IMG/VR virus record: IMGVR_UViG_3300027805_000010
Span: 1-64,000 of that record
Direction: 5' to 3' (one strand)
Length of the DNA stretch: 64,000 nt
Origin: a virus
The notes beneath the pieces were generated by a model that saw only the letters and a program-made list of their open reading frames with translations, was not told where the DNA came from and ran no database searches. This document shows positions 3,308-49,459 of this stretch, in pieces; the stretch's first letter is position 1; each line of letters begins with the position of its first letter. The position numbers were made by a program, and so were the translations under genes.

Positions 3308-3657
3308 GTATAAAGAGAAAATTTACTGTTGAACCATCTTTACTTGGACTCGGTGGTCAACCCGTTAGAGAAATAACATTAAACATTGGAAACAATCCAC
3401 CTGGATCCACAGGAGCAACTGGGCCGGCTGGGATCGGAGCAACCGGAGCTACTGGTGCTGCTGGGTTTGGGGCTACCGGATCAACTGGAGAAGGGAGCAT
3501 CGGCGCGACTGGACCAGCAGGTAATCCACAAATGGAAGTGACTGCATCTAATGGTTCTGTGTGGGGCATTACCGTTTCTATTAATGGTATACTAGGAACT
3601 ACACAAGTAAGCGGTCCGGTAACTGGATCATCTGGAGTAACTCCTCCAGCAGGATAA
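3304..3657 (+). CDS. Short collagen-like fibre protein
   Basis: 117 residues. Residues 34-75 are Gly-X-Y triplets dominated by GATG and GPAG, like the two large fibre proteins downstream in the virion module. The flanking parts are a 30-residue N-terminus that could be a virion attachment segment and a Ser/Gly/Val-rich C-terminus. Phage collagen-like triplets form trimeric fibres or decorate capsids. The start overlaps the stop of the thioesterase gene. Its location far from the other fibre genes is odd; it may be an accessory decoration. Confidence 0.6.
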   Translation: MSIKRKFTVEPSLLGLGGQPVREITLNIGNNPPGSTGATGPAGIGATGATGAAGFGATGSTGEGSIGATGPAGNPQMEVTASNGSVWGITVSINGILGTTQVSGPVTGSSGVTPPAG

Positions 3658-9329: not shown

Positions 9330-9359
9330 TTAACTTTTTATAAATAATAAAAAAGTTAA
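9330..9359 (+). promoter_or_regulatory. Palindrome enclosing a late promoter box
   Basis: TTAACTTTTT (9330-9339) and AAAAAGTTAA (9350-9359) are perfect inverted arms around ATAAATAATA. The loop together with the last T makes TATAAATA (9339-9346), identical to the T4 late promoter core, 26 nt before the endolysin ATG. The arms resemble the AACTTTTTTC/GAAAAAAGTT palindromes upstream of three other genes. Confidence 0.5.
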
Positions 9360-9364
9360 CAAGT

Positions 9365-10198
9365 ATGGTATTACGAAATGGATCAAAGGGTCCTGAGGTT
9401 AAAAAGATTCAGGAAAAACTAGGCGTAGAGCCAACGGGTAATTTTGGCCCGAAAACAGAAGCCGCTGTAAAAGCTTGGCAAAAAGCAAACGGTCTAACCG
9501 ACGATGGTATTGTTGGACCTAACACTTTAACTAAAATGGGAATCAGTGTTTCAGCTGCCCCTACCCCAACCGCTGCACCAGTTGCAATCCCACCTTCTGC
9601 ATTTAAACTTGAAAAATTAAAAGGACATATTCCTGATGCAGTTATTGCTCAAATTCCAGATACAGCTGCAAAGTTTGGTATTACTAATATTTTAAGATTA
9701 GCTCATTTCTTAGCACAGTGTGGTCATGAGAGTGGTGGATTCAAAGCAGTATCAGAAAATCTAAATTATTCAGCTGATGGATTAAAAAAGATTTTCCCTA
9801 AGTACTTCCCTGGTAATCTTAATGAATCATACGCTCGTAATCCTGAAAAGATTGCATCAAGAGTTTATGCATCTCGTATGGGTAACGGAGATGAAGCTTC
9901 TAAAGAAGGTTTCAAATTCCGCGGTCGTGGTTATATTCAATTAACTGGAAAATCAAACTACACAAACTTTGCTAAATTCATTGGCGAAGATACTATTGCT
10001 AATCCTGATTTGGTAGCAACTAAATATCCTTTAGCTTCTGCTGCATTCTTCTTTAACTCAAATAGCCTTTGGTCAATTTGTGATAGAGGTGCTGATGATG
10101 CTACAGTTACATCAGTAACTAAAAGAGTTAACGGTGGTACTATCGGTCTTGCTGATCGTATCAAACATTTCAAAGAATACTACAACTTACTTAAGTAA
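9365..10198 (+). CDS. Endolysin: peptidoglycan-binding plus GH19 domain
   Basis: 277 residues in two domains joined by an Ala/Pro/Thr linker (residues 62-77). Residues 3-58 are a PG_binding_1 domain (GSKGPEVKKIQEKLG, then DGIVGPNTLTKMG). Residues 80-277 are a glycoside hydrolase family 19 lysozyme/chitinase: catalytic Glu122 in CGHESGGF, and FRGRGYIQLTGKSNY. It cleaves the glycan backbone of peptidoglycan at lysis. No signal peptide is visible, so it needs a holin for release. A late-promoter box sits 26 nt upstream. Confidence 0.92.
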   Translation: MVLRNGSKGPEVKKIQEKLGVEPTGNFGPKTEAAVKAWQKANGLTDDGIVGPNTLTKMGISVSAAPTPTAAPVAIPPSAFKLEKLKGHIPDAVIAQIPDTAAKFGITNILRLAHFLAQCGHESGGFKAVSENLNYSADGLKKIFPKYFPGNLNESYARNPEKIASRVYASRMGNGDEASKEGFKFRGRGYIQLTGKSNYTNFAKFIGEDTIANPDLVATKYPLASAAFFFNSNSLWSICDRGADDATVTSVTKRVNGGTIGLADRIKHFKEYYNLLK

Positions 10199-18276: not shown

Positions 18277-18732
18277 ATGAAGAAACTTACTGTTATTTTT
18301 GATCTTGATGGTACTTTGGCAATCATCGACAAACGTCGACTGTTAGCCGCCAAACCAGATGGAAAGATTCATTGGGGAAAATTCTTTGATCCACAAAACA
18401 TTCAATTAGACGAACCTAACACTCCTGTTATTACGGCGTTCAAGGCATTGAAAGACCAAGGATACCGTGTAGGTATTTTTTCAGGCAGGGATTCAATTTC
18501 TCGTACAGAAACCGAACAGTGGTTATCTGATAATGGAATCCATCCAGACTTCTTACGTATGAGACCTCAACGATCTTACACCAAAGATGATATCCTAAAG
18601 AAACAATGGTTGGATGAAGAATTGGAAATGGGTCACGAAATCTTATGTACATTTGATGATCGTGATAAAGTAGTAAAAATGTGGAGAGACAACGGAATCG
18701 TTTGTTTTCAAGTAGCACCTGGAGATTTTTAA
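18277..18732 (+). CDS. Pnk-type 3'-phosphatase (HAD domain)
   Basis: 151 residues. HAD motif FDLDGTLA with Asp9 and Asp11, the FSGR motif II, and motif TFDDRDKVVKMWRDNG followed by CFQVAPGDF, which is the closing signature of the T4 polynucleotide kinase phosphatase domain. It removes 3' phosphates from broken DNA or RNA ends. In T4 this domain is the C-terminal half of one protein; here it is a separate gene, followed 3 nt later by the kinase. The promoter lies 21 nt upstream. Confidence 0.88.
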   Translation: MKKLTVIFDLDGTLAIIDKRRLLAAKPDGKIHWGKFFDPQNIQLDEPNTPVITAFKALKDQGYRVGIFSGRDSISRTETEQWLSDNGIHPDFLRMRPQRSYTKDDILKKQWLDEELEMGHEILCTFDDRDKVVKMWRDNGIVCFQVAPGDF

Positions 18733-18735
18733 ATT

Positions 18736-19137
18736 ATGAAAGAGTTATTTTTATTAAGAGGTTTACCTGGTAGTGGTAAATCAACATTGGCAAAATCATT
18801 AGGTGGATTTCACGTTGAAGCTGATATGTATTTTATGAAAGACGGTAGTTATATCTTTGATGGATCTAAACTAAAGGATGCCCATCAATGGTGCCATGAC
18901 GAAGTTAATACTGCAATGATACTAAATCATACTACCGGCGAAAACAAAAGAATCATAGTATCAAATACATTTACACAGGAATGGGAAATGAAAGCATACT
19001 ACGATTTGGCTAAAGAATGGGACTATAAAGTATTTTCGCTGGTGGTTGAAAATCGTCATAACGGTGTAAATGAACATGGCGTACCTGATGAAGCCTTAAC
19101 TAGAATGAAAGATCGTTTTGAATTTAAACTTATTTAA
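18736..19137 (+). CDS. P-loop kinase, Pnk-type 5'-kinase
   Basis: 133 residues. Walker A GLPGSGKST (Lys15), an acidic residue in VEADMYF after the next strand, and ALTRMKDRFE near the end, the Arg-bearing lid region of Pnk-like kinases. It should phosphorylate 5'-OH ends. It is adjacent to the phosphatase, so the two halves of Pnk are encoded separately and in reverse order to the T4 fusion. Some other small nucleotide kinases share this fold. Confidence 0.75.
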   Translation: MKELFLLRGLPGSGKSTLAKSLGGFHVEADMYFMKDGSYIFDGSKLKDAHQWCHDEVNTAMILNHTTGENKRIIVSNTFTQEWEMKAYYDLAKEWDYKVFSLVVENRHNGVNEHGVPDEALTRMKDRFEFKLI

Positions 19138-19620: not shown

Positions 19621-19660
19621 GTTACATTACTTAGATAATACCTAGTTTCAGATTGTTAAT

Positions 19661-19690
19661 AACTTTTTTCATACTAGAGAGAAAAAAGTC
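19661..19690 (+). promoter_or_regulatory. Operator-like palindrome, copy 1
   Basis: AACTTTTTTC (19661-19670), 10-nt spacer, GAAAAAAGTC (19681-19690). It ends exactly 10 nt before the TTTC box of the next promoter. The same unit is found at 25519-25548 and 26039-26067 with the same distance. TTGTTAATAACTTTTTTCAT is shared with copy 3. Likely a binding site for a dimeric phage or host regulator. Confidence 0.65.
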
Positions 19691-19700
19691 ATAGAAAAAT

Positions 19701-19731
19701 TTTCAAATCCCAATTTTTTGTTTTATATTTA
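19701..19731 (+). promoter_or_regulatory. Promoter with upstream palindrome
   Basis: TTTC (19701-19704), 19 nt, TATATTTA (19724-19731). The spacer begins AAATCCCAATT, also found in the promoter at 26078-26108. It drives the AEP-like gene starting at 19748. Confidence 0.65.
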
Positions 19732-19747
19732 CATAAATTAAACGGAA

Positions 19748-20359
19748 ATGATTAATAACATCGAACTTATCAAACCGCTACTTAACTTTGAAAAGCCTGG
19801 GGATTTCTATATGCTCTATGTTTTCAAACGTAAGAAAGACCAACCTGAAGGAGAACGGGATAATCATCAATCGGTTCGTACCATTAAAACATACTGCATT
19901 GATAACATTGAACATCTAGAAAAACGATACGAAGAAATTCAACAGTTATGTGAGATGTTTAAGGCCCGTGCATACATTCATATCCAAAAACAAAATCACC
20001 ATGATGTTGCAATGAATATGATTACTGAAATCGTACATCGTATCCAAAGCGGACAAATTAACCAACAACATGTATTTGACTCTGTGGTTGGACAAATCAA
20101 AACATCAGAAAAACGTTGGATTGTAGACATTGATACTAAAGACGAAATCGTTGTTCATCGAATTGCTCATATCATTGACCAAGTAAAACCTGAAGGGTCA
20201 AAACTTATTACTTGCATCCCAACTAAAAACGGTTATCATCTAATCACATCTAGATTTGATGTTATGGAATTTAAAAAGTATATGAATTTAGGTGGTGATA
20301 TTCCTGACATCCAAAAGAAAAATCCTACCTTATTGTATTACCCAAATTCACTATCATAA
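19748..20359 (+). CDS. Primase-fold (AEP-like) protein
   Basis: 203 residues. RWIVDIDTKDE has the hhhDhD catalytic pattern (Asp127, Asp129), and 37 residues later TKNGYHLIT has the GxH pattern (His164) of archaeo-eukaryotic primases, with a later Asp (RFD) as a possible third metal ligand. The first 110 residues are a helical region of unknown fold. This would make it a minimal primase or nucleotidyl transferase. The family call rests on motif order only. It is one of three genes under the palindrome-promoter unit. Confidence 0.45.
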   Translation: MINNIELIKPLLNFEKPGDFYMLYVFKRKKDQPEGERDNHQSVRTIKTYCIDNIEHLEKRYEEIQQLCEMFKARAYIHIQKQNHHDVAMNMITEIVHRIQSGQINQQHVFDSVVGQIKTSEKRWIVDIDTKDEIVVHRIAHIIDQVKPEGSKLITCIPTKNGYHLITSRFDVMEFKKYMNLGGDIPDIQKKNPTLLYYPNSLS

Positions 20360-20360
20360 T

Positions 20361-20564
20361 ATGAAAAAGTTATTTGTACTTCTTGTATTTGTATCATTAC
20401 TATCATGTTCGGTTGAACAAAGAATTAAAGATTATTCATATACTGATGAGTGGCACTATCTTAATGGTGAAAGATATCAGGTTTATCAAACAAGGGGTGG
20501 AAAAAAGTACATCATTGTTATAAACAAAAGAGAAACGAAATTAAAGAGAAAATACATAAAATAA
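20361..20564 (+). CDS. Small lipoprotein
   Basis: 67 residues from the ATG at 20361. Signal peptide with lipobox LLSC (Cys16), then a short basic mature part (RYQVYQTRGGKKYIIVINK) that resembles a two-strand hairpin. It starts one base after the stop of the primase-like gene. The longer frame upstream overlaps that gene and is rejected. Confidence 0.6.
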   Translation: MKKLFVLLVFVSLLSCSVEQRIKDYSYTDEWHYLNGERYQVYQTRGGKKYIIVINKRETKLKRKYIK

Positions 20565-20588
20565 TGTCAAACTTAAATTTGAAAAATT

Positions 20589-20771
20589 ATGATAATGAAT
20601 AAACGTCTGTATAGAGGAAACGGCTACATAGGTGGTGTATGCGAAGGGTTAGGTGAGTGGAGTGGTATACCCCCTATCCTATGGCGCATTCTGGCAATAT
20701 TCTTGGCATCGCTACCTACTACAATTGTGATTTACATTTTACTTTGGATTTTTGTTGAACCTAAAAAATAA
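20589..20771 (+). CDS. PspC-domain membrane protein
   Basis: 60 residues. The PspC signature is plain: RLYRGNGYIGGVCEGLGEW, then PPILWRILAIFL and a closing membrane helix ending FVEPKK. Host PspC proteins sense envelope stress in the inner membrane. A phage copy could dampen the host response to membrane damage or to phage lipoproteins. A second ATG two codons in is also a possible start. Confidence 0.85.
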   Translation: MIMNKRLYRGNGYIGGVCEGLGEWSGIPPILWRILAIFLASLPTTIVIYILLWIFVEPKK

Positions 20772-20776
20772 TAATT

Positions 20777-21346
20777 ATGTTATACACTTACGATGAAAAA
20801 AAGCTTAATTTTTACTTATTAAGTACTAAGAAGATTATGGTCTTCTTATTTATTATTGCTTCATTAATTTCATTTACTTCTATTACTGTAGGTAAGTACC
20901 TTGGAAAGAAAGAATCTTATTCCCAAATCACCGAGATGGAAAGAATGGTGTTGGTTAAAGAATCTGATGCATTCTCTCGAGATAAACTAGTGGAAATGTT
21001 AAAAGAACTTAATGTAAAATATCCACATATTGTAATGGCGCAATCAATGATTGAAACCGGTCAATGGAAAAGTAAAATCTTTTTAGAGAATAACAACCTC
21101 TTTGGAATGAAGGAAGCTAAAATGAGGGTTACTACTGCAGGAGGTACTCAATACAACCATGCATTTTATAATCATTGGAGGGAGAGTGTTTATGACTACG
21201 CATTTTACCAATGTAGGTATCTTGGTAATGTTAATTCGGAAGGGGAGTATTTCCAATATCTTTCTGCTAATTATGCAGAGAGTCCTAATTACCTAAATGC
21301 GATAAAAACTTTAATTGAAAAAGAGGGTCTTAAATCCCTCTTTTAA
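20777..21346 (+). CDS. Membrane-anchored GH73-like glucosaminidase
   Basis: 189 residues. One N-terminal membrane segment (residues 20-38), a short linker, then a glucosaminidase domain: AQSMIETGQWKSKIF with catalytic Glu93 and NNLFGMK, which are hallmarks of family 73. The C-terminal part (YFQYLSANYAESPNYLNAI) fits the family. It cuts peptidoglycan glycan strands from the periplasmic side. The last four bases overlap the convergent minus-strand gene. Confidence 0.82.
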   Translation: MLYTYDEKKLNFYLLSTKKIMVFLFIIASLISFTSITVGKYLGKKESYSQITEMERMVLVKESDAFSRDKLVEMLKELNVKYPHIVMAQSMIETGQWKSKIFLENNNLFGMKEAKMRVTTAGGTQYNHAFYNHWRESVYDYAFYQCRYLGNVNSEGEYFQYLSANYAESPNYLNAIKTLIEKEGLKSLF

Positions 21347-21723
21347 TCTAATTCGTGGTAACCATCATTGGCCTGTTTCAAATAGTTATAGGCCTGTGAT
21401 ATATGATCTTGGATCCAACCTGGAATATCTTTTTCCAGGTTTCCAAGTTTTTCTTGCAAGTCTAATGCATCATCAATTAATGCAGCTAGTAATTTTTGTG
21501 CCATGTTAACTTCATGGTCTTGTTCAGTAAGATTAGATGTTTTCCAATGTGGACTTTGTTTAGATCCTCTAGTTGGATGAACATCATCAAATCCTTGATA
21601 CTCTGGTGTATCATATGCATTCGTATTCTTACCGGCCATTTCATCCCAATAAGATTTGAAATCTGCAACGGTTCCTTTATAGTGGCGGATCTTACTTAGA
21701 TCTTCTCTTTCTTGATTGTCCAT
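21343..21723 (-). CDS. Hypothetical protein, minus-strand block
   Basis: 126 residues, acidic and helical in the C-terminal half (DDALDLQEKLGNLEKDIPGW). No family recognised. Last gene of a three-gene minus-strand operon starting at 22656; it starts 1 nt after its neighbour stops. The block interrupts a window that otherwise reads only on the plus strand. Its neighbours suggest a head or internal protein. Confidence 0.6.
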   Translation of the reverse strand: MDNQEREDLSKIRHYKGTVADFKSYWDEMAGKNTNAYDTPEYQGFDDVHPTRGSKQSPHWKTSNLTEQDHEVNMAQKLLAALIDDALDLQEKLGNLEKDIPGWIQDHISQAYNYLKQANDGYHELD

Positions 21724-21724
21724 C

Positions 21725-22207
21725 TTACGTTAGTTTATCAAATTTTTTCTTAAGATCATGAATTGCGGTTAGTACCTTTAATTTCTCAAGATCAATTTTG
21801 TCCATTTTGATTTTTAATTCATATAGAGCAATTGCATAGTTATCTTGACGATCTTGCGCAGCGCGGAATCTTTCAAGGTTTTGTTGCTCTCTACGTTTAA
21901 GTCTTTCGGCATGAGCGGCAGGATCGTAATCATGATCATTTGCTTCCATAATGGATTCTTCCATTTTTGCTAACTTCTCATAGTACTTAGGATCTTCAAA
22001 GATGTGATCTTTTGCAATTTCATATGCAGCATCAGGGTCGTCAAGATGTTCCATTTCAACCTTTTGTCCTCTTTTAAGGGCAGCTTCAATTTCTGCTACA
22101 GGTAACTTATGTTTATCTGCTAGATCTTGTGCATCCATACCATCAGCCATCCCACCTTTGATAATTTCCTTTTCTACAACGTAGTCTTTAAATTTTAAAA
22201 TGTCCAT
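21725..22207 (-). CDS. DUF5661-like protein with possible capsid-targeting N-terminus
   Basis: 160 residues. Residues 18-80 (GMADGMDAQDLADKHKLP, KRGQKVEMEHLDDPDAAYEI, AKDHIFEDPKYYEKL) match the DUF5661 pattern found in phage and bacterial proteins. The rest is a long charged coiled coil. The N-terminus MDILKFKDYVVEKE resembles the hydrophobic-acidic-aromatic capsid-targeting peptides of T4 internal proteins. That resemblance is shared with the two neighbouring minus-strand genes. Confidence 0.6.
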   Translation of the reverse strand: MDILKFKDYVVEKEIIKGGMADGMDAQDLADKHKLPVAEIEAALKRGQKVEMEHLDDPDAAYEIAKDHIFEDPKYYEKLAKMEESIMEANDHDYDPAAHAERLKRREQQNLERFRAAQDRQDNYAIALYELKIKMDKIDLEKLKVLTAIHDLKKKFDKLT

Positions 22208-22209
22208 AA

Positions 22210-22656
22210 TTAAAATGTATTGTCCATAATCATTTTCTGTACAGCTAATTTAAGTGTATCAGTATTTACTCCAGGTTTAAGCATTTTAGAACTTTCAAGA
22301 TTATCAACAATAACCATTGCTAAAACCTTTGCGCCTGATGGTTTCTTATCACCAGCAACTTGTACCATTGCTTCATTAGTAACAGAATAGCTTTCGTAAA
22401 CCTCATCAATTTTATCGTTGAGATGTTTTTTGGCTTCTTTGATATATTCCTTGCCTTTATGTTTAGGATTATCATTCATTTCATATGCAAGAGCTTCTTT
22501 TGCAATGTGGTTTCCTAATTGAGTGGCTGGCCCAACAATTGCATCCATATTATATCCAGTGTCAGCATGAGTATTTGCTCCTAACGCATACATTGATGCG
22601 CTAGGCATACTAAATCCAATTGGTATGAAATCTTCAAATAGTGGTAATTTAGTCAT
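22210..22656 (-). CDS. Hypothetical protein with possible capsid-targeting N-terminus
   Basis: 148 residues. N-terminus MTKLPLFEDFIPIG, with an LFEDFI core like T4 capsid-targeting peptides. The remainder is helical (IKEAKKHLNDKIDEVYESYS). No family recognised. First gene of the minus-strand operon; a late-type box lies 28 nt upstream on the minus strand. Confidence 0.6.
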   Translation of the reverse strand: MTKLPLFEDFIPIGFSMPSASMYALGANTHADTGYNMDAIVGPATQLGNHIAKEALAYEMNDNPKHKGKEYIKEAKKHLNDKIDEVYESYSVTNEAMVQVAGDKKPSGAKVLAMVIVDNLESSKMLKPGVNTDTLKLAVQKMIMDNTF

Positions 22657-22667
22657 GTTTATTGATT

Positions 22668-22685
22668 TTGATTTTTTTATATATT
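22668..22685 (-). promoter_or_regulatory. Late-type promoter on minus strand
   Basis: Minus-strand text AATATATAAAAAAATCAA, 12 nt before the start of the gene at 22656. The same 18 bases occur at 23124-23141 before the other minus-strand gene. TATATA plus A-tract matches the late promoter pattern of the plus-strand virion genes. Confidence 0.6.
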
Positions 22686-22731
22686 TAAGTAGTTACGTAA
22701 CCGCTCTAGTAGAAAGTCTGTACTATTAGCA

Positions 22732-23115
22732 TCATAAACCTAAATCATCTTTAACAAAATAATGAGCTATATTCCAAGCTTCTTCAGGAGACATACCATG
22801 TTGGAGTTTTAAAACTTTCATTATAGCTCTCTCTACATACTCGTGCATTATTACTCTTTTAATATCACTTGAAGGTGTTTTGTCTGATATAAATATCTCA
22901 TCTTCAGGTATATGAAAGCTTTTTTTACCATAATGATGACTACCTAAATAATCATTCCACACTGGGTATTGTCTACTTAAAATGGATGAATCAATTAAAT
23001 ATACTTTGATTCCATCTATAGTAGTTAGTAGTTGTTTTTTGTATAAAATAGAGCTTAAATTCTGCTCGTTTAAGTTATTCTCAACTAAGAATTCGTCATA
23101 AGACAGCAATTGCAT
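22732..23115 (-). CDS. Hypothetical protein with T4-like capsid-targeting N-terminus
   Basis: 127 residues. N-terminus MQLLSYDEFLVENN closely follows the T4 internal-protein targeting pattern (Tyr-x-Glu-Phe-Ile/Leu-x-Glu), which is cleaved by the prohead protease. The middle holds a helix VIMHEYVERAIMK, which is HExxE rather than HExxH, so a metalloprotease call is not supported. If packaged, it would be injected with the DNA. It has its own late-type box on the minus strand. Confidence 0.6.
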   Translation of the reverse strand: MQLLSYDEFLVENNLNEQNLSSILYKKQLLTTIDGIKVYLIDSSILSRQYPVWNDYLGSHHYGKKSFHIPEDEIFISDKTPSSDIKRVIMHEYVERAIMKVLKLQHGMSPEEAWNIAHYFVKDDLGL

Positions 23116-23123
23116 ACTATAAC

Positions 23124-23141
23124 TTGATTTTTTTATATATT
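23124..23141 (-). promoter_or_regulatory. Late-type promoter on minus strand
   Basis: Minus-strand AATATATAAAAAAATCAA, identical over 18 bases to the box at 22668-22685, ending 9 nt before the start at 23115. Confidence 0.6.
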
Positions 23142-23143
23142 CA

Positions 23144-23174
23144 TTTCATAAACTAAGTACCATGAATACATATA
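23144..23174 (+). promoter_or_regulatory. Possible early promoter
   Basis: TTTC (23144-23147), 19 nt, TACATATA (23167-23174), 17 nt before the ATG at 23191. The -7 box is a poorer match than the others. Its position between divergent genes makes a promoter likely even if the exact box is uncertain. Confidence 0.35.
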
Positions 23175-23190
23175 ATAATAAACATAGAAT

Positions 23191-23400
23191 ATGAACGATT
23201 TTCATAAGACCGTAATGGGTCAAAAATTTTACACAGCTGACTTACCGAGGTTGATCACTGTATTGGAAAAGATTGCAACTAAAATGGAAGAGTCAAATAA
23301 GCTTGACGAAAAGCGCTTTAAGTTGGAAGAAAAGTTAATGAGGCGACAATTACGCGAACTTAATGAAGATTTAGACGCAACAAATACTGGCGCTAGGTAA
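23191..23400 (+). CDS. Small coiled-coil protein
   Basis: 69 residues. Residues 18-62 form a charged helix with heptads (LITVLEKIATKMEESNKLDE, KLMRRQLRELNEDLDA). No family recognised. First gene of a plus-strand operon running to about 25519; its stop overlaps the next start by one base. Confidence 0.55.
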   Translation: MNDFHKTVMGQKFYTADLPRLITVLEKIATKMEESNKLDEKRFKLEEKLMRRQLRELNEDLDATNTGAR

Positions 23401-23666
23401 TGAAGGTTAAGAATGTAACTAGGGAAGAATACATGAAAGCACTGTCCAAGTGGCAGCGTTGTTACATGAAGAAACCCAAGTCTTGGCAAAAGGTATGGAT
23501 GTGGTGGGAAAAGGATAAAAATGATCCAAAGGAACAATGGTTTATGAACATTGCTAGATCAACTAGAACCGGAATAGAAGAGTCGGTTTGGATAACCGCA
23601 AAGGATGTTGAACATTGGATCGGTTACATGGATAGAGAAGGCTACAAATATCATATTGATGAATAA
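23400..23666 (+). CDS. Hypothetical Trp-rich protein
   Basis: 88 basic residues with seven Trp residues (SKWQRCYMKKPKSWQKVWMW). No family recognised. It overlaps both neighbours, so translation is coupled along this operon. Confidence 0.55.
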   Translation: MKVKNVTREEYMKALSKWQRCYMKKPKSWQKVWMWWEKDKNDPKEQWFMNIARSTRTGIEESVWITAKDVEHWIGYMDREGYKYHIDE

Positions 23667-24003
23667 TCTAGTTTATGCATTTATTCTCTTTTCGGTTGGA
23701 CAAGCTATTATATGGATTCAATCAAATGGACAGTTCCTTTGGCCTTGGTGGAAAAACAATCCTCTTTTAGTATCATTTACATTAGGCGGTATTGCAAGTT
23801 ATATTTTTATAAAAGCAACATATTATACATATACATATTTTGATAATACACTTTGGCCAGGTAGGTTTATTGGTTTTGCAAGTGGTATACTTGTATTTGC
23901 ATTGCTAACATGGTTACTAATGAATGAAGGTATTAATACCAAGACTGTTGTTTCTTTATGTTTAGCAACAGCTTTATTAGCAGTACAAATATTTTGGAAA
24001 TGA
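23659..24003 (+). CDS. Inner-membrane protein, four segments
   Basis: 114 residues from the ATG at 23659; earlier in-frame ATGs fall in the previous gene. Four predicted membrane segments cover most of the length (LVYAFILFSVGQAIIWI; LLVSFTLGGIASYIFI; FIGFASGILVFALLTWLL; VVSLCLATALLAVQIF). No transport motif is visible. It overlaps the DnaJ-like gene (ATGA). Confidence 0.6.
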   Translation: MNNLVYAFILFSVGQAIIWIQSNGQFLWPWWKNNPLLVSFTLGGIASYIFIKATYYTYTYFDNTLWPGRFIGFASGILVFALLTWLLMNEGINTKTVVSLCLATALLAVQIFWK

Positions 24004-24827
24004 AAGACCCATATAAAGTATTAGGATTAGAAAGATCAGCATCTGACGATGAGATTAAAAAGACTTATCGTAAATTGGCAATGGAACATCACCCGGACCG
24101 GACGGGTGGCGACGATTCAAGATTTAAGGAAATAGCCGAGGCATATGATATCTTAGGAGATCCAAAAAAGAAAGCCCAGTGGCATACACAGTCAAAATTT
24201 GCAGGTGGCGGATCTTTCCAATTTGATGATCAACTGTTTGAAGACTTTTTAAAGAATCATGGATTCTCTGAGGCGTTTAATGCTAGGTATGGCTATTCTC
24301 AAAACGGGAAGGGTACTAATGTTAATGCACAGATACAGATAACTTTAGAAGAAGCATATTTCGGTACTCGTAGAGAATTACGAATAGGTATGAGAACTGT
24401 TGCCGTATCAATAGAACCTGGTATTATGAATGGTCAAAGACTTAAGTTAAAAGGTCTTGGGCAAAAAGGAATGACCGAAGAACTAAACGGAGATCTAATT
24501 CTTACAGTCAATATATTGGACCACCTTGACTATATGATAGACAATAGAGGCTTACATAAGATACACCGTGTTGGTGTTTTTGATGCAATGCTAGGTGGCA
24601 AATCATCAATAGATATTTTTGATAAGAAAATTAATTTCACTATTCCACAGGGTACCCAGAATGGAATGGTGTTAAGAATACAAGGAAAAGGATTTCCTAT
24701 TTATAATCAGCCTGAAAAATATGGAGATCTCTATGTAAATGTTCTGGTTGAATTACCAAAGGAACTTAATGAAGATGAAATTAATCTTATTAGACAAGTT
24801 AAAGATATGATAGATGGAAGAAAATAA
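24000..24827 (+). CDS. DnaJ/CbpA-type J-domain chaperone
   Basis: 275 residues. The J domain covers residues 1-65 with the HPD triad at 31-33 (MEHHPDRTGG). A short glycine/phenylalanine region follows, then two substrate-binding beta domains (RRELRIGMRTVAVSIEPG, GDLILTVNI; then GGKSSIDIF, IPQGTQNGMVLRIQGKGFP). No zinc-finger Cys repeats are present, so it is type B (CbpA-like). It stimulates DnaK ATPase. No phage DnaK is visible, so it must work with the host DnaK, for instance in folding virion or replication proteins. Confidence 0.9.
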   Translation: MKDPYKVLGLERSASDDEIKKTYRKLAMEHHPDRTGGDDSRFKEIAEAYDILGDPKKKAQWHTQSKFAGGGSFQFDDQLFEDFLKNHGFSEAFNARYGYSQNGKGTNVNAQIQITLEEAYFGTRRELRIGMRTVAVSIEPGIMNGQRLKLKGLGQKGMTEELNGDLILTVNILDHLDYMIDNRGLHKIHRVGVFDAMLGGKSSIDIFDKKINFTIPQGTQNGMVLRIQGKGFPIYNQPEKYGDLYVNVLVELPKELNEDEINLIRQVKDMIDGRK

Positions 24828-25065
24828 AAGACCTAAAATAATTATACTTGGATTAGGAGAACTTGCCCATGAAGAGTTTATGGAAGTATTCTACAACCTG
24901 ATAATTTCTTCGCCCGAAGATATATTAGGCTATGATGAAACACCTGAACATAAGATAGCAAAACTAAATCATTTGCTTGAATTTTTTGAGGAACGTGAAC
25001 AGTACGAAAAATGCGCAAAGATTAAAGATATACAAGAACTCATAAAAGACAATACCAATGAATAA
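24814..25065 (+). CDS. Small protein with UVR-like helical motif
   Basis: 83 residues. The C-terminal half KLNHLLEFFEEREQYEKCAK followed by IKDIQELIKD fits the UVR motif (two helices, E-x-E-x-Y-E-x-A), which mediates protein contacts in UvrB/UvrC and in McsA/Clp adaptors. It overlaps the DnaJ-like gene. A role as an adaptor between chaperone or protease systems is possible. Confidence 0.5.
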   Translation: MEENKRPKIIILGLGELAHEEFMEVFYNLIISSPEDILGYDETPEHKIAKLNHLLEFFEEREQYEKCAKIKDIQELIKDNTNE

Positions 25066-25519
25066 GGAAGATGAATTAAAGAAAACATTGTTAGGCATAC
25101 TTGGCGAAAAGATTGTTGCAAAGTACCTTAGAGATTGTGGTCATAGTGTTAATGAATCTCTCTATATGTTTGATTCCACAAAAGACCTTGATGTTGATGG
25201 CGAAATGGTAGAAGTAAAAACGCAAGTACCTTTTCTTATTTATGATTCATTTGCAGTAAGTATCAATCAGATGAATAAAATTCAAAACTCACATAGGGTG
25301 TATTGGGTGAGTGTGCCACCAAGCAAGGTAAATGATGTTATGAGTGGATTTGTATTTGAAATGGATCCTAAGGTTGCAACAAGTTTTATGCATAGGTTAA
25401 AAACTGGTAGAGAAGTAATGTGCTTTAAAAGAAACCAGGAAGGTATGAAAATTGTATATCAGATAAAAGATCAAAAACTCCTAAAACACTTACAGGAATT
25501 ATCCACAAGTTACCTATAA
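25058..25519 (+). CDS. PD-(D/E)XK nuclease-like protein
   Basis: 153 residues. An N-terminal helix with GEKIVAKYLRDCGHSVNE (Glu17), then KDLDVDGEMVEVKTQ, which gives the Asp...Glu-x-Lys core (Asp45, Glu52, Lys54) of restriction-endonuclease-like folds. Helicase and metal-binding extras are absent. Candidate roles are Holliday-junction or repair nuclease, or host-DNA degradation. The stop is immediately followed by the palindrome of the next promoter. Confidence 0.6.
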   Translation: MNKEDELKKTLLGILGEKIVAKYLRDCGHSVNESLYMFDSTKDLDVDGEMVEVKTQVPFLIYDSFAVSINQMNKIQNSHRVYWVSVPPSKVNDVMSGFVFEMDPKVATSFMHRLKTGREVMCFKRNQEGMKIVYQIKDQKLLKHLQELSTSYL

Positions 25520-25548
25520 ACTTTTTTCTCTCTAGAGTGAAAAAAGTT
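25519..25548 (+). promoter_or_regulatory. Operator-like palindrome, copy 2
   Basis: AACTTTTTTC (25519-25528), spacer TCTCTAGAGT (10 nt, itself almost palindromic), GAAAAAAGTT (25539-25548). The arms are perfect. Ten bases separate it from the -33 position of the next promoter, as in the other two copies. Confidence 0.65.
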
Positions 25549-25558
25549 GGTGAAATAT

Positions 25559-25589
25559 TTTTTTATCCCAAAAAATTGTATTAAATTTA
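25559..25589 (+). promoter_or_regulatory. Promoter with upstream palindrome
   Basis: TTTT (25559-25562), 19 nt, TAAATTTA (25582-25589), 29 nt before the ATG at 25618. The boxes are weaker than in the two sister units, but their spacing to each other and to the palindrome is the same. Confidence 0.5.
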
Positions 25590-25617
25590 TACTATAAATT
25601 AATTAATACAATATACT

Positions 25618-26037
25618 ATGATTAACAACGTACAATACCTAATTCAGAAATACGCTGAAGCCCGTGAGAACATGAACCAACCAGGATCTGCTACCGAATA
25701 TTGGAAAGGATCAATGGACACTTACCATTCATTACTTATTTTAGGATTCAATGACTGGGCATTACCAGGGTCGGTAGGATACTATGTATTTTACGAAGGT
25801 ATGAATTATGATTCTGCTTTAGGTAAAGTAGAGAGAGAAAGAGAATCCATTAATGATCAATCCGAAGACATGGAACAGTTCAATACAAAGGAAGAGATTG
25901 TGGAACTCTTAGTTAAAAGATGCGGTATGAAAAGATCCACTTTTTACAACACCGATACTAATAAGCAACGTGAAAAACACTGGACCTTTAATAGAACCCT
26001 TAATTTTTACATGGGGTTAAAGAACCAGAATTGTTAA
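25618..26037 (+). CDS. Hypothetical protein, 139 residues
   Basis: Soluble protein with aromatic-rich helices (YWKGSMDTYHSLLILGF) and a C-terminal stretch EEIVELLVKRCGMKRSTFYN that could be a small helix-turn-helix. No family recognised. It stands alone between two palindrome-promoter units, which hints at a regulatory or replication role. Confidence 0.55.
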   Translation: MINNVQYLIQKYAEARENMNQPGSATEYWKGSMDTYHSLLILGFNDWALPGSVGYYVFYEGMNYDSALGKVERERESINDQSEDMEQFNTKEEIVELLVKRCGMKRSTFYNTDTNKQREKHWTFNRTLNFYMGLKNQNC

Positions 26038-26038
26038 T

Positions 26039-26067
26039 AACTTTTTTCATATTGGGAGAAAAAAGTT
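26039..26067 (+). promoter_or_regulatory. Operator-like palindrome, copy 3
   Basis: AACTTTTTTC (26039-26048), 9-nt spacer, GAAAAAAGTT (26058-26067), then exactly 10 nt to TTTC. It begins one base after the stop of the preceding gene, so it cannot be shifted by coding constraint. Confidence 0.65.
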
Positions 26068-26077
26068 AGAGAAAAAT

Positions 26078-26108
26078 TTTCAAATCCCAATTATTTGTAT
26101 TATATTTA
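26078..26108 (+). promoter_or_regulatory. Promoter of the DNA ligase gene
   Basis: TTTC (26078-26081), 19 nt, TATATTTA (26101-26108), 18 nt before the ligase ATG. The spacer begins AAATCCCAATT, as in the promoter at 19701. Confidence 0.7.
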
Positions 26109-26126: not shown

Positions 26127-27431
26127 ATGGAAAACCTTACAAAAGATCTAAACTACTTACAATCATTCCTGGATGAAATGAACGCATCATCTTCAGGGAA
26201 TCATAAGATTGCAACAATTCGTAAACATGCTGATAATGAATTCCTTAAGAAGGTTTTCTATTATACATACAATCCTTTCAAAAAGTACGGTGTGCATACC
26301 AAGGTTCTACTAAAGAACTCGCATCTAACTGCACCTGAAAATATCTATTCCGATTTATTCCAATTGTTGGATAACCTGGCTGATAACAATTTAACCGGGC
26401 ATGCTGCTATCCAAGCAGTAAATACATTCGTAAATGAATTGCCATCTGACTTACAAAAATTGGTACACTTTATCTTAGACCGCGATCTTCGTATGGGTGC
26501 ATCAATTACATCGGTACTTAAGGTACATCCTAATATCATACCTACATTTAAGGTTGCACTCGCACACCCATACTCGCCAACCCGTGTAAACTTCGGAACT
26601 GAGGAATGGTACGGTTCTCGTAAACTCGATGGCGTCCGTTGTATCTGTCGCAAGGAAGGTAATTCTGTAACTTTTTATTCAAGAAACGGTAAAGAATTTG
26701 AAACACTAGGTCGTATTGCCGAAGACATTAAACAGATCCCTGGTAATTTTATCCTAGATGGAGAAGTCTGTATGGTTGACCAAAATGGTAAAGAAGACTT
26801 CCAAGGTATTATGAAGGAGATTCGCCGTAAGGATCATACAATTCAAAATCCTAAGTTCTTGGTATTTGACTGTCTTACCATTGAGGAATTTGATAATCAT
26901 AAAGGTACTGATAAATTGGCTGACCGTTTACAACGTCCTACTATGAACAGTATTCTAAACGGAGAATTTAACACTCTTACTATTGTTGAACAGATCCGTA
27001 TCAATACCGAAGAGGAATTTACCGAAATGGCTAAGGATGCCGAAATTAACGGTTATGAAGGTATCATGGTTCGTAAGAACATTGGTTATGAAGGTACCCG
27101 TTCACATAGCCTCTTAAAGGTGAAAAAATTCCATGATGCAGAATACACGGTTTTAGAATGTGTAAACGGTACAATTCGTTGGACTGAAAATGGCCAACAA
27201 GTTGAAAAGGAATGTTTAAGCAGTATCATTATTGAACATAAAGGTTACCGTGTATCGGTAGGATCTGGATTTTCCAAGGAACAACGAGAATATTACTTAA
27301 ACCGCCACAATGAATTGGTAGGTAAAACTGTAACGGTTCAATACTTTGAGGAATCTCAAAATCAAATGGGTGGTTACTCATTAAGATTCCCTGTTGTGAA
27401 ACATATATATACAAATGGTAGAGATTGTTAA
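26127..27431 (+). CDS. ATP-dependent DNA ligase
   Basis: 434 residues. Nucleotidyltransferase motif I is SRKLDGVR with the adenylated Lys166. Other motifs are SRNGKEFETL (III), LDGEVCM, VFDCL, NGYEGIMVRKN (IV) and LLKVKKF (V). Residues 1-150 form the helical DNA-binding domain of T4-like ligases (RDLRMGASITSVLKV), and the C-terminus is an OB fold. It seals nicks during replication and repair. It is the clearest member of the palindrome-controlled gene set. Confidence 0.93.
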   Translation: MENLTKDLNYLQSFLDEMNASSSGNHKIATIRKHADNEFLKKVFYYTYNPFKKYGVHTKVLLKNSHLTAPENIYSDLFQLLDNLADNNLTGHAAIQAVNTFVNELPSDLQKLVHFILDRDLRMGASITSVLKVHPNIIPTFKVALAHPYSPTRVNFGTEEWYGSRKLDGVRCICRKEGNSVTFYSRNGKEFETLGRIAEDIKQIPGNFILDGEVCMVDQNGKEDFQGIMKEIRRKDHTIQNPKFLVFDCLTIEEFDNHKGTDKLADRLQRPTMNSILNGEFNTLTIVEQIRINTEEEFTEMAKDAEINGYEGIMVRKNIGYEGTRSHSLLKVKKFHDAEYTVLECVNGTIRWTENGQQVEKECLSSIIIEHKGYRVSVGSGFSKEQREYYLNRHNELVGKTVTVQYFEESQNQMGGYSLRFPVVKHIYTNGRDC

Positions 27432-29153: not shown

Positions 29154-31103
29154 ATGGCATTTAATTTACAAGAATATATTCTCTTTAGAACCGAAATAGG
29201 TAGAGAACTGTTCAATGCTGAAGTTGATACGAACTTCAGAATGGTTGCTAATCCTTGGGTTAATGACAGGGTGTATGACGAAGGAAATATTGTATATCAT
29301 CCAGTTGAGGTTGATAGCCCAACAGGAAACAGTGGTACAACCAGCGGACCTGAGCAGGTTCTGGCGTGGTGGAGAGCCAATCAAAGAACAACATTAGGTA
29401 CATTTGATACAAATGAATGGGACTTAATTGGTGGAATTGGTACAGGAGACATTACAGTTGGTGCTCAACCAGGATTTGGTAAAATTAGAGTAAATTACAC
29501 CGGAACAATTGGATCATGGCAAGCTGGTAACAATGCCTTATTAAATGCGCCTACGCCTGATGCAACAGTAAACCTTGTTGCAGGTAGTGGTATGAGTTTA
29601 CAATATGATGTTACTACAAATTCAATTAGACTTATTAATACAGGATCACAAGGCGAAGTAAACCAAGGGATAAACATAGGTACTGGTTTGGCAGTTTTTG
29701 CTGGTATGAGTGGTACCGATTTAACTTTTAAAGGACTAGGCGTTTCAGTATCAAGTAGTCCAGCATTATCTATTTCTACCGATGCATTTAATAATGTGGT
29801 ATATCGATTAGACGAAGGTCAAATTAATTTATCAAATCTAAATAATGGTCAACCTACAGCAGATTTGTTATATGATGTAACATATGTAGGTGGCGGACCA
29901 ACTAATAATGATATTCTTCAGTGGAATGCTTCGAGCAATAGTTGGAGAAACGTTTCATTAACAACGGCAGGTGCACAAGGTCCTACTGGAGCAATTGGTG
30001 CAACTGGAGCGCAAGGCTTTACCGGAGCAACCGGTTCTGGTGCAACTGGCAGTATAGGTTTTACTGGTGCAACTGGAAATCAAGGATTTACTGGTTCAAC
30101 TGGTTCAGGTTTTACCGGAGCCACTGGAATCGGAGCAACTGGTGCAACTGGAAATCAAGGATTTACTGGTTCAACTGGATTAGGTTTTACTGGAGCAACT
30201 GGGATTGGAGCAACTGGTGCAACTGGAAATCAAGGATTTACTGGTTCAACTGGATTAGGCTCTACTGGAGCAACCGGACCACAAGGAGATATTGGTGCGA
30301 CTGGTTCAGGCTCTATTGGAGCAACTGGGCTTGGGGCAACCGGAGCAACCGGAGCAACTGGATCACAAGGAAATATCGGTTCAACTGGACTTGGTTCAAC
30401 TGGCGCAACTGGACCAGGTTCTACTGGAGCAACTGGACCACAAGGAAATATTGGTGCAACTGGCGCCGGTAGCGGTGGTACCTCTACTATATACAATACA
30501 GTTTCTCGCTACCAGGCATTTGTAAGTGGTGACATTGAATGTTGGTTACTTTCAAGTGCCACAGTTAACACTGGTTTATCTTGGACAAGAACAAGTACCA
30601 CTCTAACAATTACGCGTAACAGTCATGGTCATGCAAATGGTGATACTGTCATAATAAGAAATGCAAACCAGGATAATTTCTATGGAGTCGTTTCTAATGC
30701 GGCTACAAACACATTTGATGTAACCACTGCCGACACGGGAGCAACATCAGGTTCTGCTGCAGGTTATTCTTTAGGATTTAAGGTTACTTCTGCAACAGCA
30801 ACGGTATTAACCATAGCAGCACCGACCGGAGGTGATGTACAACTATTAGGAGTTTTGTATGCCACTGGGTCAAGAGGTGGTGCCACAACTTTAGCCGTTA
30901 CGGTACCCGCATCGGCGACTAATGGAGCAGGAGCTGATAGTGTAGCACAAAATACATTCTTTCCTATAATCAGAGGTCATTTAGTAGGAGGAGCTATTAT
31001 ATCCGCTTTGTCCATGACATTAACGGCTGGCCCAAACCATAATATATTTAATTTAGCTTCATTAAATTCAACCGCTAGCTGTTTGATAAGACTAGACTTT
31101 TAA
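29154..31103 (+). CDS. Collagen-like tail fibre protein
   Basis: 649 residues. The N-terminal 270 residues begin with the segment [20 protein letters not shown], a probable virion attachment domain. About residues 275-440 are Gly-X-Y triplets ([10 protein letters not shown]-type), expected to form a trimeric collagen-like rod. The C-terminal 205 residues form a beta-rich head ([20 protein letters not shown]), probably the receptor-binding tip. The opposite strand carries long open frames only because Gly/Thr/Ala codons lack stops in reverse. Confidence 0.8.
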
Positions 31104-31120
31104 AAAATTAATATACCCAA

Positions 31121-35890
<4,770 letters not shown>

Positions 35891-35939: not shown

Positions 35940-36464
35940 ATGGATAATAGTACCGGTACACAAGAGCTAACTTTACAATGGGTAAAGGGAGACAAAATAG
36001 GCAACATTGAAAAGGTATCATCACAGGATAACGAATGGACTATCTTTCAAAGTGGGTCAAGAATTTCAACTGGTCTTATTCATGAATTTATGATTCCTAT
36101 TGAAGGAGAACCTCTTAGTTTTGATCCAACACTGCCTGTATTAGAAGGTCCTACTGGTTCAGTTGGACCAGGACCTCATCCTGCAGGAATTTCAGAATCT
36201 GCTAAATCGGCAAAAGAAAATCCAATTAAGACTCTTTTTAATAAACAAAAGAAAACTGATAAGGTTGATCTTAAACTTTCATTTTCAATTAATGTACCAG
36301 CTAAAGATATCTTTGATATTATAAGTATGACATTTGATGAAGAAGAAGTAATTACAGAACTTGATTCATTTATATCAAATCAAATTGATCCAAGTATTTT
36401 AAAGGATACATTAAGAACCTCAATTGAGGAACTTATTATCAATAGGTACAAACTTAACTCTTAA
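35940..36464 (+). CDS. Hypothetical virion-module protein
   Basis: 174 residues from ATG 35940; the longer frame starts at TTG in the leader. Mixed beta N-terminus and a helical C-terminal third (KDIFDIISMTFDEEEVITEL). A short GPTGSVGPGP linker. No family recognised. It follows the giant fibre gene and may be a fibre attachment or assembly factor. Confidence 0.55.
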   Translation: MDNSTGTQELTLQWVKGDKIGNIEKVSSQDNEWTIFQSGSRISTGLIHEFMIPIEGEPLSFDPTLPVLEGPTGSVGPGPHPAGISESAKSAKENPIKTLFNKQKKTDKVDLKLSFSINVPAKDIFDIISMTFDEEEVITELDSFISNQIDPSILKDTLRTSIEELIINRYKLNS

Positions 36465-36476
36465 TTTTTAAGATAA

Positions 36477-36488
36477 TATATATTAAAA
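36477..36488 (+). promoter_or_regulatory. Late-type promoter box
   Basis: TATATA (36477-36482) then TTAAAA, 21 nt before the ATG at 36498. Confidence 0.45.
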
Positions 36489-36497
36489 TAACAAACT

Positions 36498-49392: not shown

Positions 49393-49430
49393 TACCTTTG
49401 AATCTATAATCTAATTTACTATTTTTTAGC

Positions 49431-49459
49431 AGAGAATATATATTAAAAGAATATTCTCT
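49431..49459 (+). promoter_or_regulatory. Late-type box inside a perfect hairpin
   Basis: AGAGAATAT (49431-49439) and ATATTCTCT (49451-49459) are perfect 9-base arms; TATATA (49437-49442) lies inside. The right arm ends at the base before the gp25 ATG. If transcription starts downstream of the box, the mRNA is nearly leaderless; if it starts upstream, the hairpin abuts the start codon. Confidence 0.5.

Follow-up and report, generated by a model that had tools for sequence, protein, structure and literature searches.

In Escherichia coli, the class I sites of CRP lie at -61.5, -71.5, -82.5 and -92.5, and the nrd and lambda pR promoters are controlled by DnaA. In the middle promoters of phage T4, the MotA box takes the place of the -35 element. 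The proximal subsite of the UP element reads AAAAAARNR and spans -46 to -38, and the DnaA box has the consensus TTWTNCACA. Housekeeping promoters of Bacteroidetes follow the consensus TTTG at -33 and TAnnTTTG at -7, of which the -33 motif is reportedly non-essential. Finally, the Pm promoter of phage Mu combines a partial UP element with the activator Mor, which is phage-encoded and centred at -43.5 (PMC4390567).

The window considered here is a stretch of 64,000 nucleotides, positions 1 to 64,000 of the IMG/VR virus record IMGVR_UViG_3300027805_000010. It carries three predicted promoter units of a kind that resembles the CRP class I promoters of E. coli, in that an upstream site is directional and stands at whole-turn steps from the promoter, and that differs from them in the site itself, in the Bacteroidetes core promoter and in being shared by phage and host.

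Three palindrome-promoter units in the window

An earlier note on this DNA had described a palindrome at a fixed distance from a promoter at three positions, and every element that it named was recovered there by a sequence check (Table 1); its arm sequences also stand, apart from the first right arm, which ends in GTC, with C and not T as the last base. The arms are 10, 10 and 9 nt apart in units 1, 2 and 3, and in all three exactly 10 nt, the gap that had been given, separate the right arm from TTTC, TTTT and TTTC, respectively, beyond which come N19 and the -7 element. No match to the exact palindrome is expected in shuffled sequence, and within the complete 78,609-base record it is confined to these three places, so the scattering through the genome that the note had named as evidence against its reading was not seen. 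Units 1 and 3 closely match each other (89% across a 64-nt part). Both are preceded by ATTGTTAATAAC, which had been overlooked, is missing from unit 2 and is the part that other phages keep. Both also contain GTTAATAAC, whereas unit 2 consists of the arms alone and reads CCTATAAAC. A canonical DnaA box, TTATCCACA, is found at 25499-25507, at the end of the preceding open reading frame and 12 nt upstream of the unit 2 arms; its neighbour is thus the unit that lacks GTTAATAAC.

Table 1. Features of the three units (window positions; core promoters are predicted).
Feature	Position	Strand	Sequence or product; basis
Unit 1 operator	19652..19666	+	ATTGTTAATAACTTT, with GTTAATAAC starting 69 bp before the -7; sequence, consensus, comb
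Unit 1 left arm	19661..19670	+	AACTTTTTTC; sequence
Unit 1 right arm	19681..19690	+	GAAAAAAGTC, including A-tract AAAAAAGT; sequence
Unit 1 core promoter	19701..19731	+	TTTC-N19-TATATTTA, -7 at 19724; Bacteroidetes -7/-33 consensus
Unit 1 first gene	19748..20359	+	203-aa AEP-primase-like protein
Unit 2 left arm	25519..25528	+	AACTTTTTTC; GTTAATAAC lacking, reads CCTATAAAC
Unit 2 right arm	25539..25548	+	GAAAAAAGTT; sequence
Unit 2 core promoter	25559..25589	+	TTTT-N19-TAAATTTA, -7 at 25582; sequence
Unit 2 first gene	25618..26037	+	139-aa protein, no assigned function
Unit 3 operator	26030..26044	+	ATTGTTAATAACTTT, with GTTAATAAC starting 68 bp before the -7
Unit 3 left arm	26039..26048	+	AACTTTTTTC; sequence
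Unit 3 right arm	26058..26067	+	GAAAAAAGTT, including A-tract; sequence
Unit 3 core promoter	26078..26108	+	TTTC-N19-TATATTTA, -7 at 26101; sequence
Unit 3 first gene	26127..27431	+	ATP-dependent DNA ligase; PF01068, 35 relatives in viral contigs

The -7 elements TATATTTA and TAAATTTA agree with the Bacteroidetes consensus at seven of eight positions, the final base being A instead of G, and TATATTTG takes this place in some relatives and in the host genes; at -33 the N19-spaced tetramers stand against the consensus TTTG. A Bacteroidetes host is indicated by the type of the -7 element together with a Por_Secre_tail domain in a protein encoded by the phage and the occurrence of relatives of the 203-aa protein in phages of Cellulophaga, Tenacibaculum and Prevotella. 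The three units are accordingly described here as predicted regulated promoters of a Bacteroidetes phage.

The inverted repeat might be thought to form an RNA hairpin or a terminator of the upstream gene, since the three arm pairs, 29-30 nt long, fold at -6.4 to -8.4 kcal/mol. Against this, the repeat is not followed by a T run, as the GC-rich stem of an intrinsic terminator would be, no terminator-like site was called there, and relatives whose arms abut retain the operator but almost none of the fold (-1.8 kcal/mol). This explanation is very improbable.

Of the two targets to which the earlier note had given a function, the DNA ligase is borne out by its Pfam domain and the AEP-like protein by motifs and modest fold matches. 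In the alignment of the 203-aa protein, DxD and GxH are invariant and a third D is near-invariant, and the motifs VDxD, TKxGxH and FD resemble those of AEP primases. The best full-length fold matches of its model were the RepB' primase (Z 7.9) and human Pri1 (Z 6-7), each over most of the length; Foldseek returned no significant match, and the primases were listed by a second aligner only, with modest Z-scores. The protein is called AEP-primase-like, the fold match lying below the level that proves identity by fold alone. For the 139-aa protein, no relatives were confirmed in IMG/VR.

Several further features of the window were observed. Two neighbouring polynucleotide-kinase/ATPase-like genes lie directly upstream of unit 1 (18277-19137), and a third kinase-like gene and a dCMP deaminase gene lie downstream of the ligase. 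A related inverted repeat, TTAACTTTTTATAAATAATAAAAAAGTTAACAAG, separates two open reading frames at 9330-9365; read on the minus strand it starts with CTTGTTAACTTTTTT and resembles the unit minus ATA. AATATATATTAAAA-like stretches, possibly late promoters, stand ahead of structural-region genes at 36462-36490 and 49420-49455, where the unit is absent. Moreover, long coding regions with many tandem copies of a collagen-like G-x-y repeat, likely fibre genes, occupy 29970-35370 and also occur at 3403-3521.

Conservation and helical phasing in related phages

Judged from aligned relatives, what is conserved is the order 15-bp operator ATTGTTAATAACTTT, spacer, A-tract AAAAAAGT and, at a fixed distance from this tract, Bacteroidetes-type promoter with the -7 element TATATTTA, and not mirror symmetry. 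Upstream of the DNA ligase gene, the unit is conserved in most of 33 aligned relatives; most ligase relatives, in 35 viral contigs, show ATTGTTAATAACTTTTT, a spacer, AAAAAAGT, about 34 nt containing AAAATTTTCAAWTCCCAA, and then TATATTTA, and in many of them the palindrome arms abut. Of 50 whole phage records, the majority picked for having a matching locus and several of them fragments, 42 contained the unit and none the reversed pattern. When the arm spacer was left free between 0 and 28 in whole-record searches, only spacers of 1-3, 12-13 and 23 were observed, apart from one extra match in G016, readable as a site whose arms abut and whose right arm is degenerate. The palindrome, taken by the earlier note as the recognised unit, is not supported in that role, as the arms vary in this way among relatives and are missing from most host copies. 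Promoters anchored on AAAAAAGT and the -7 element also carry GTTAATAAC in most records, and one relative (G009) keeps the arms and the core promoter and nothing more.

The full unit occurs in at least 118 stretches of viral contigs; such counts are not a census, because many loci had been retrieved with the operator-arm pattern at arm spacers of 0-14, a limit that does not bind the 0-28 search and the measured -7 distances in the same way. The unit is absent from the Cellulophaga and Flavobacterium phages tested. Chryseobacterium phage loci found by blastn share the look of the core promoter and lack the operator, and MA9V-2 carries a single operator at another place, at a distance of 47 bp.

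The distance from the start of GTTAATAAC to the -7 element is 46-48, 56-58, 67-69 or 79 bp in phages, that is, it changes in steps of one helical turn. With GTTAATAACTT alone as anchor and the distance measured to the first -7 element, the 61 non-redundant sites fell at 46-48 (20 sites), 56-58 (24), 67-69 (10) and 79 bp (1), with six scattered, giving R=0.906 at 10.8 bp, a value reached by none of 20,000 random sets. No phasing was seen for the reverse complement of the operator (R=0.24, p=0.69); the operator is thus directional and, seen from the promoter, lies on a single side of the helix. Conservation extends beyond the anchored bases, which are invariant by construction: in the flanks of the 53 on-comb sites, 41 have A at -3, 49 have T at -2, all 53 have T at -1 and 50 have T at +11.

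The single constant spacing proposed in the earlier note hence gives way to a distance quantised in helical turns, as expected of a class I arrangement, in which the upstream site keeps helical register with the core promoter. Its suggestion of a regulator that contacts RNA polymerase gains from the same register, which makes such contact probable. The MotA-like geometry that it had drawn upon does not apply: both systems serve phage replication genes and hold a site in fixed register with the promoter, but here 46 bp or more separate the start of the operator from the -7 element, which places the operator clear of the -33 region and not in the stead of a -35 element; it takes several whole-turn positions and is also found at host genes. 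Repression through polymerase contact would fit the phasing too, and the tandem copies described below for host hup and dnaB could be negative; the phage site, however, does not reach into the core promoter, and we consider a repressor acting on polymerase from upstream quite unlikely.

Among distinct units, the first gene encodes a DNA ligase in 20 cases, a sigma70-like factor in nine and an ECF-like sigma factor in three, the others being small proteins without assigned function. The phage sigma factors are of two kinds, sigma70-like proteins of 191 aa (PF04542, 3e-14) and ECF-like proteins of about 206 aa (PF04542, 1e-10), and examples of sigma genes behind the unit are seen in L100 (at 4065) and L251 (at 11984). 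No structural genes were recognised among the targets searched, which included a minority of the small ones. By its composition the target set looks like the early or middle genes at the head of a cascade, a timing that we infer.

The operator in bacterial chromosomes

The phage-specific site implied by the earlier note is not supported, as the operator is also found at bacterial replication genes. Exact full units are rare: 257 Gb of bacterial genome sequence yielded 15 matches to the strict pattern, among others at rsmH in five Muribaculaceae/Prevotellaceae, at dnaA in two Lentisphaeria, at nrdDG and, in Capnocytophaga, in the region ahead of tuf. A looser search identified TTGTTAATAACTT 57 bp before TATATTTGC at gyrB in four Flavobacteriaceae. 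In Bacteroidia, 15 de-duplicated operator-promoter pairs, whose distances were taken from the matches by hand, are phased as in phages (R=0.73, p=0.0006). Furthermore, of 149 Flavobacteriaceae genomes 35 contain tandem copies, which occur 48 times and are mostly 20 bp apart, against one occurrence of the reversed pattern; about 29 precede hup and 10 precede dnaB, oriented opposite to the gene, and others are near dnaN or dnaA. Since the operator stands at gyrB, hup, dnaB, nrdD and dnaA, the phage operator is also a host operator for replication genes, although the inverted tandem copies at hup and dnaB may act in another way. These tandem TTGTTAATAAC sites (for example L363-L402, L437 and L438) apparently represent a host operator not previously described; no description was found in the literature searched, which is not proof of novelty.

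An activator encoded by the phages themselves, as the earlier note had envisaged, would make the host copies a coincidental or captured resemblance. The full unit is indeed far commoner in viral contigs, with at least 118 stretches, than in bacterial genomes, with 15, and the phages do encode sigma factors and other regulators. The conservation of the operator at host replication genes argues against such an activator, as does the finding that no protein is common to all 13 unit-bearing records compared, several of them fragments. A universal phage gene was accordingly dropped as a candidate: the ECF-like sigma factor has homologues in five records (G019, G025, G031, G037 and G040) and was not detected in G000. 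A phage-encoded activator therefore appears unlikely.

The whole unit could also be a UP element: no separate regulator would be needed if the host RNA polymerase used the C-terminal domain of its alpha subunit to bind A/T tracts along a single helical face. AAAAAAGTY matches the proximal UP subsite AAAAAARNR at eight of nine positions, deviating at the last base, and, like the subsite in E. coli, AAAAAAGT lies upstream of the -33 region; the helical steps and the presence in both phage and host also fit. In the group of G026 and G019, AAAAAAGT is about one turn closer to the promoter, near the canonical place as judged from the -7 element, whereas in the window's group it lies about one turn further upstream. 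Unlike a UP element, however, the phage units add the sequence-specific GTTAATAAC, of which G and C, together with the flanks, are conserved beyond A/T content, and the A6 arm is missing from the host copies at gyrB, hup and dnaB. We regard the UP element as improbable as an account of the entire unit.

A proposed host regulator and the DnaA question

The reading that we favour, with moderate confidence and from sequence comparisons, is that the phages have copied a host operator whose protein would touch RNA polymerase from upstream in a class I-like manner. A host-encoded regulator of replication genes would bind the operator, the A-tract AAAAAAGT would probably serve as a UP subsite for the alpha C-terminal domain, and the phages would in this way couple their ligase, primase-like and sigma genes to the replication programme of the host. 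A sigma factor made from a unit promoter would then serve later promoters, and unit 2, which has no operator, may be a copy with weaker activity or other regulation. The proposed pairing of an activator site with an alpha-CTD subsite on a phage promoter recalls Mu Pm; compared with Mor at -43.5 (PMC4390567), the present operator is further upstream and also belongs to the host.

DnaA with a changed box specificity is, tentatively, the leading candidate for this regulator, in view of the set of target genes and of TTATTAACA, which agrees with TTWTNCACA except for A instead of C at position 6. Replication genes as targets and a near-consensus box are shared with DnaA-controlled promoters; nevertheless, TTATTAACA is not a consensus box. 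At base-contacting residues of DnaA, P423A and T435A occur together in one Flavobacteriaceae genome, and T435A in two Lentisphaeria, according to an alignment made by eye. The case for DnaA is weakened by its own promoters, nearly all of which lack the box in 20 Flavobacteriaceae, and by canonical boxes beside the operator, TTATCCACA-like motifs being no more frequent there than in the control. A plain DnaA box was rejected on these two counts, and a Rex-type site, TTGTTAANNNNTTAACAA, was rejected as only one half is present in the sequence. The fuller proposal, that a Bacteroidetes DnaA with T435A and P423A binds TTATTAACA as a class I activator of host replication genes and that many phages copied this box in helical register for ligase, primase-like and sigma genes, is possible but doubtful.

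The units represent a predicted promoter class common to many uncultured Bacteroidetes phages, in a phylum in which phage gene regulation is hardly known, and tie this class to an operator at replication genes of the host that seems not to have been described. They thereby open the questions of which protein governs the replication genes of Bacteroidetes and how their phages time the expression of replication and sigma-factor genes.
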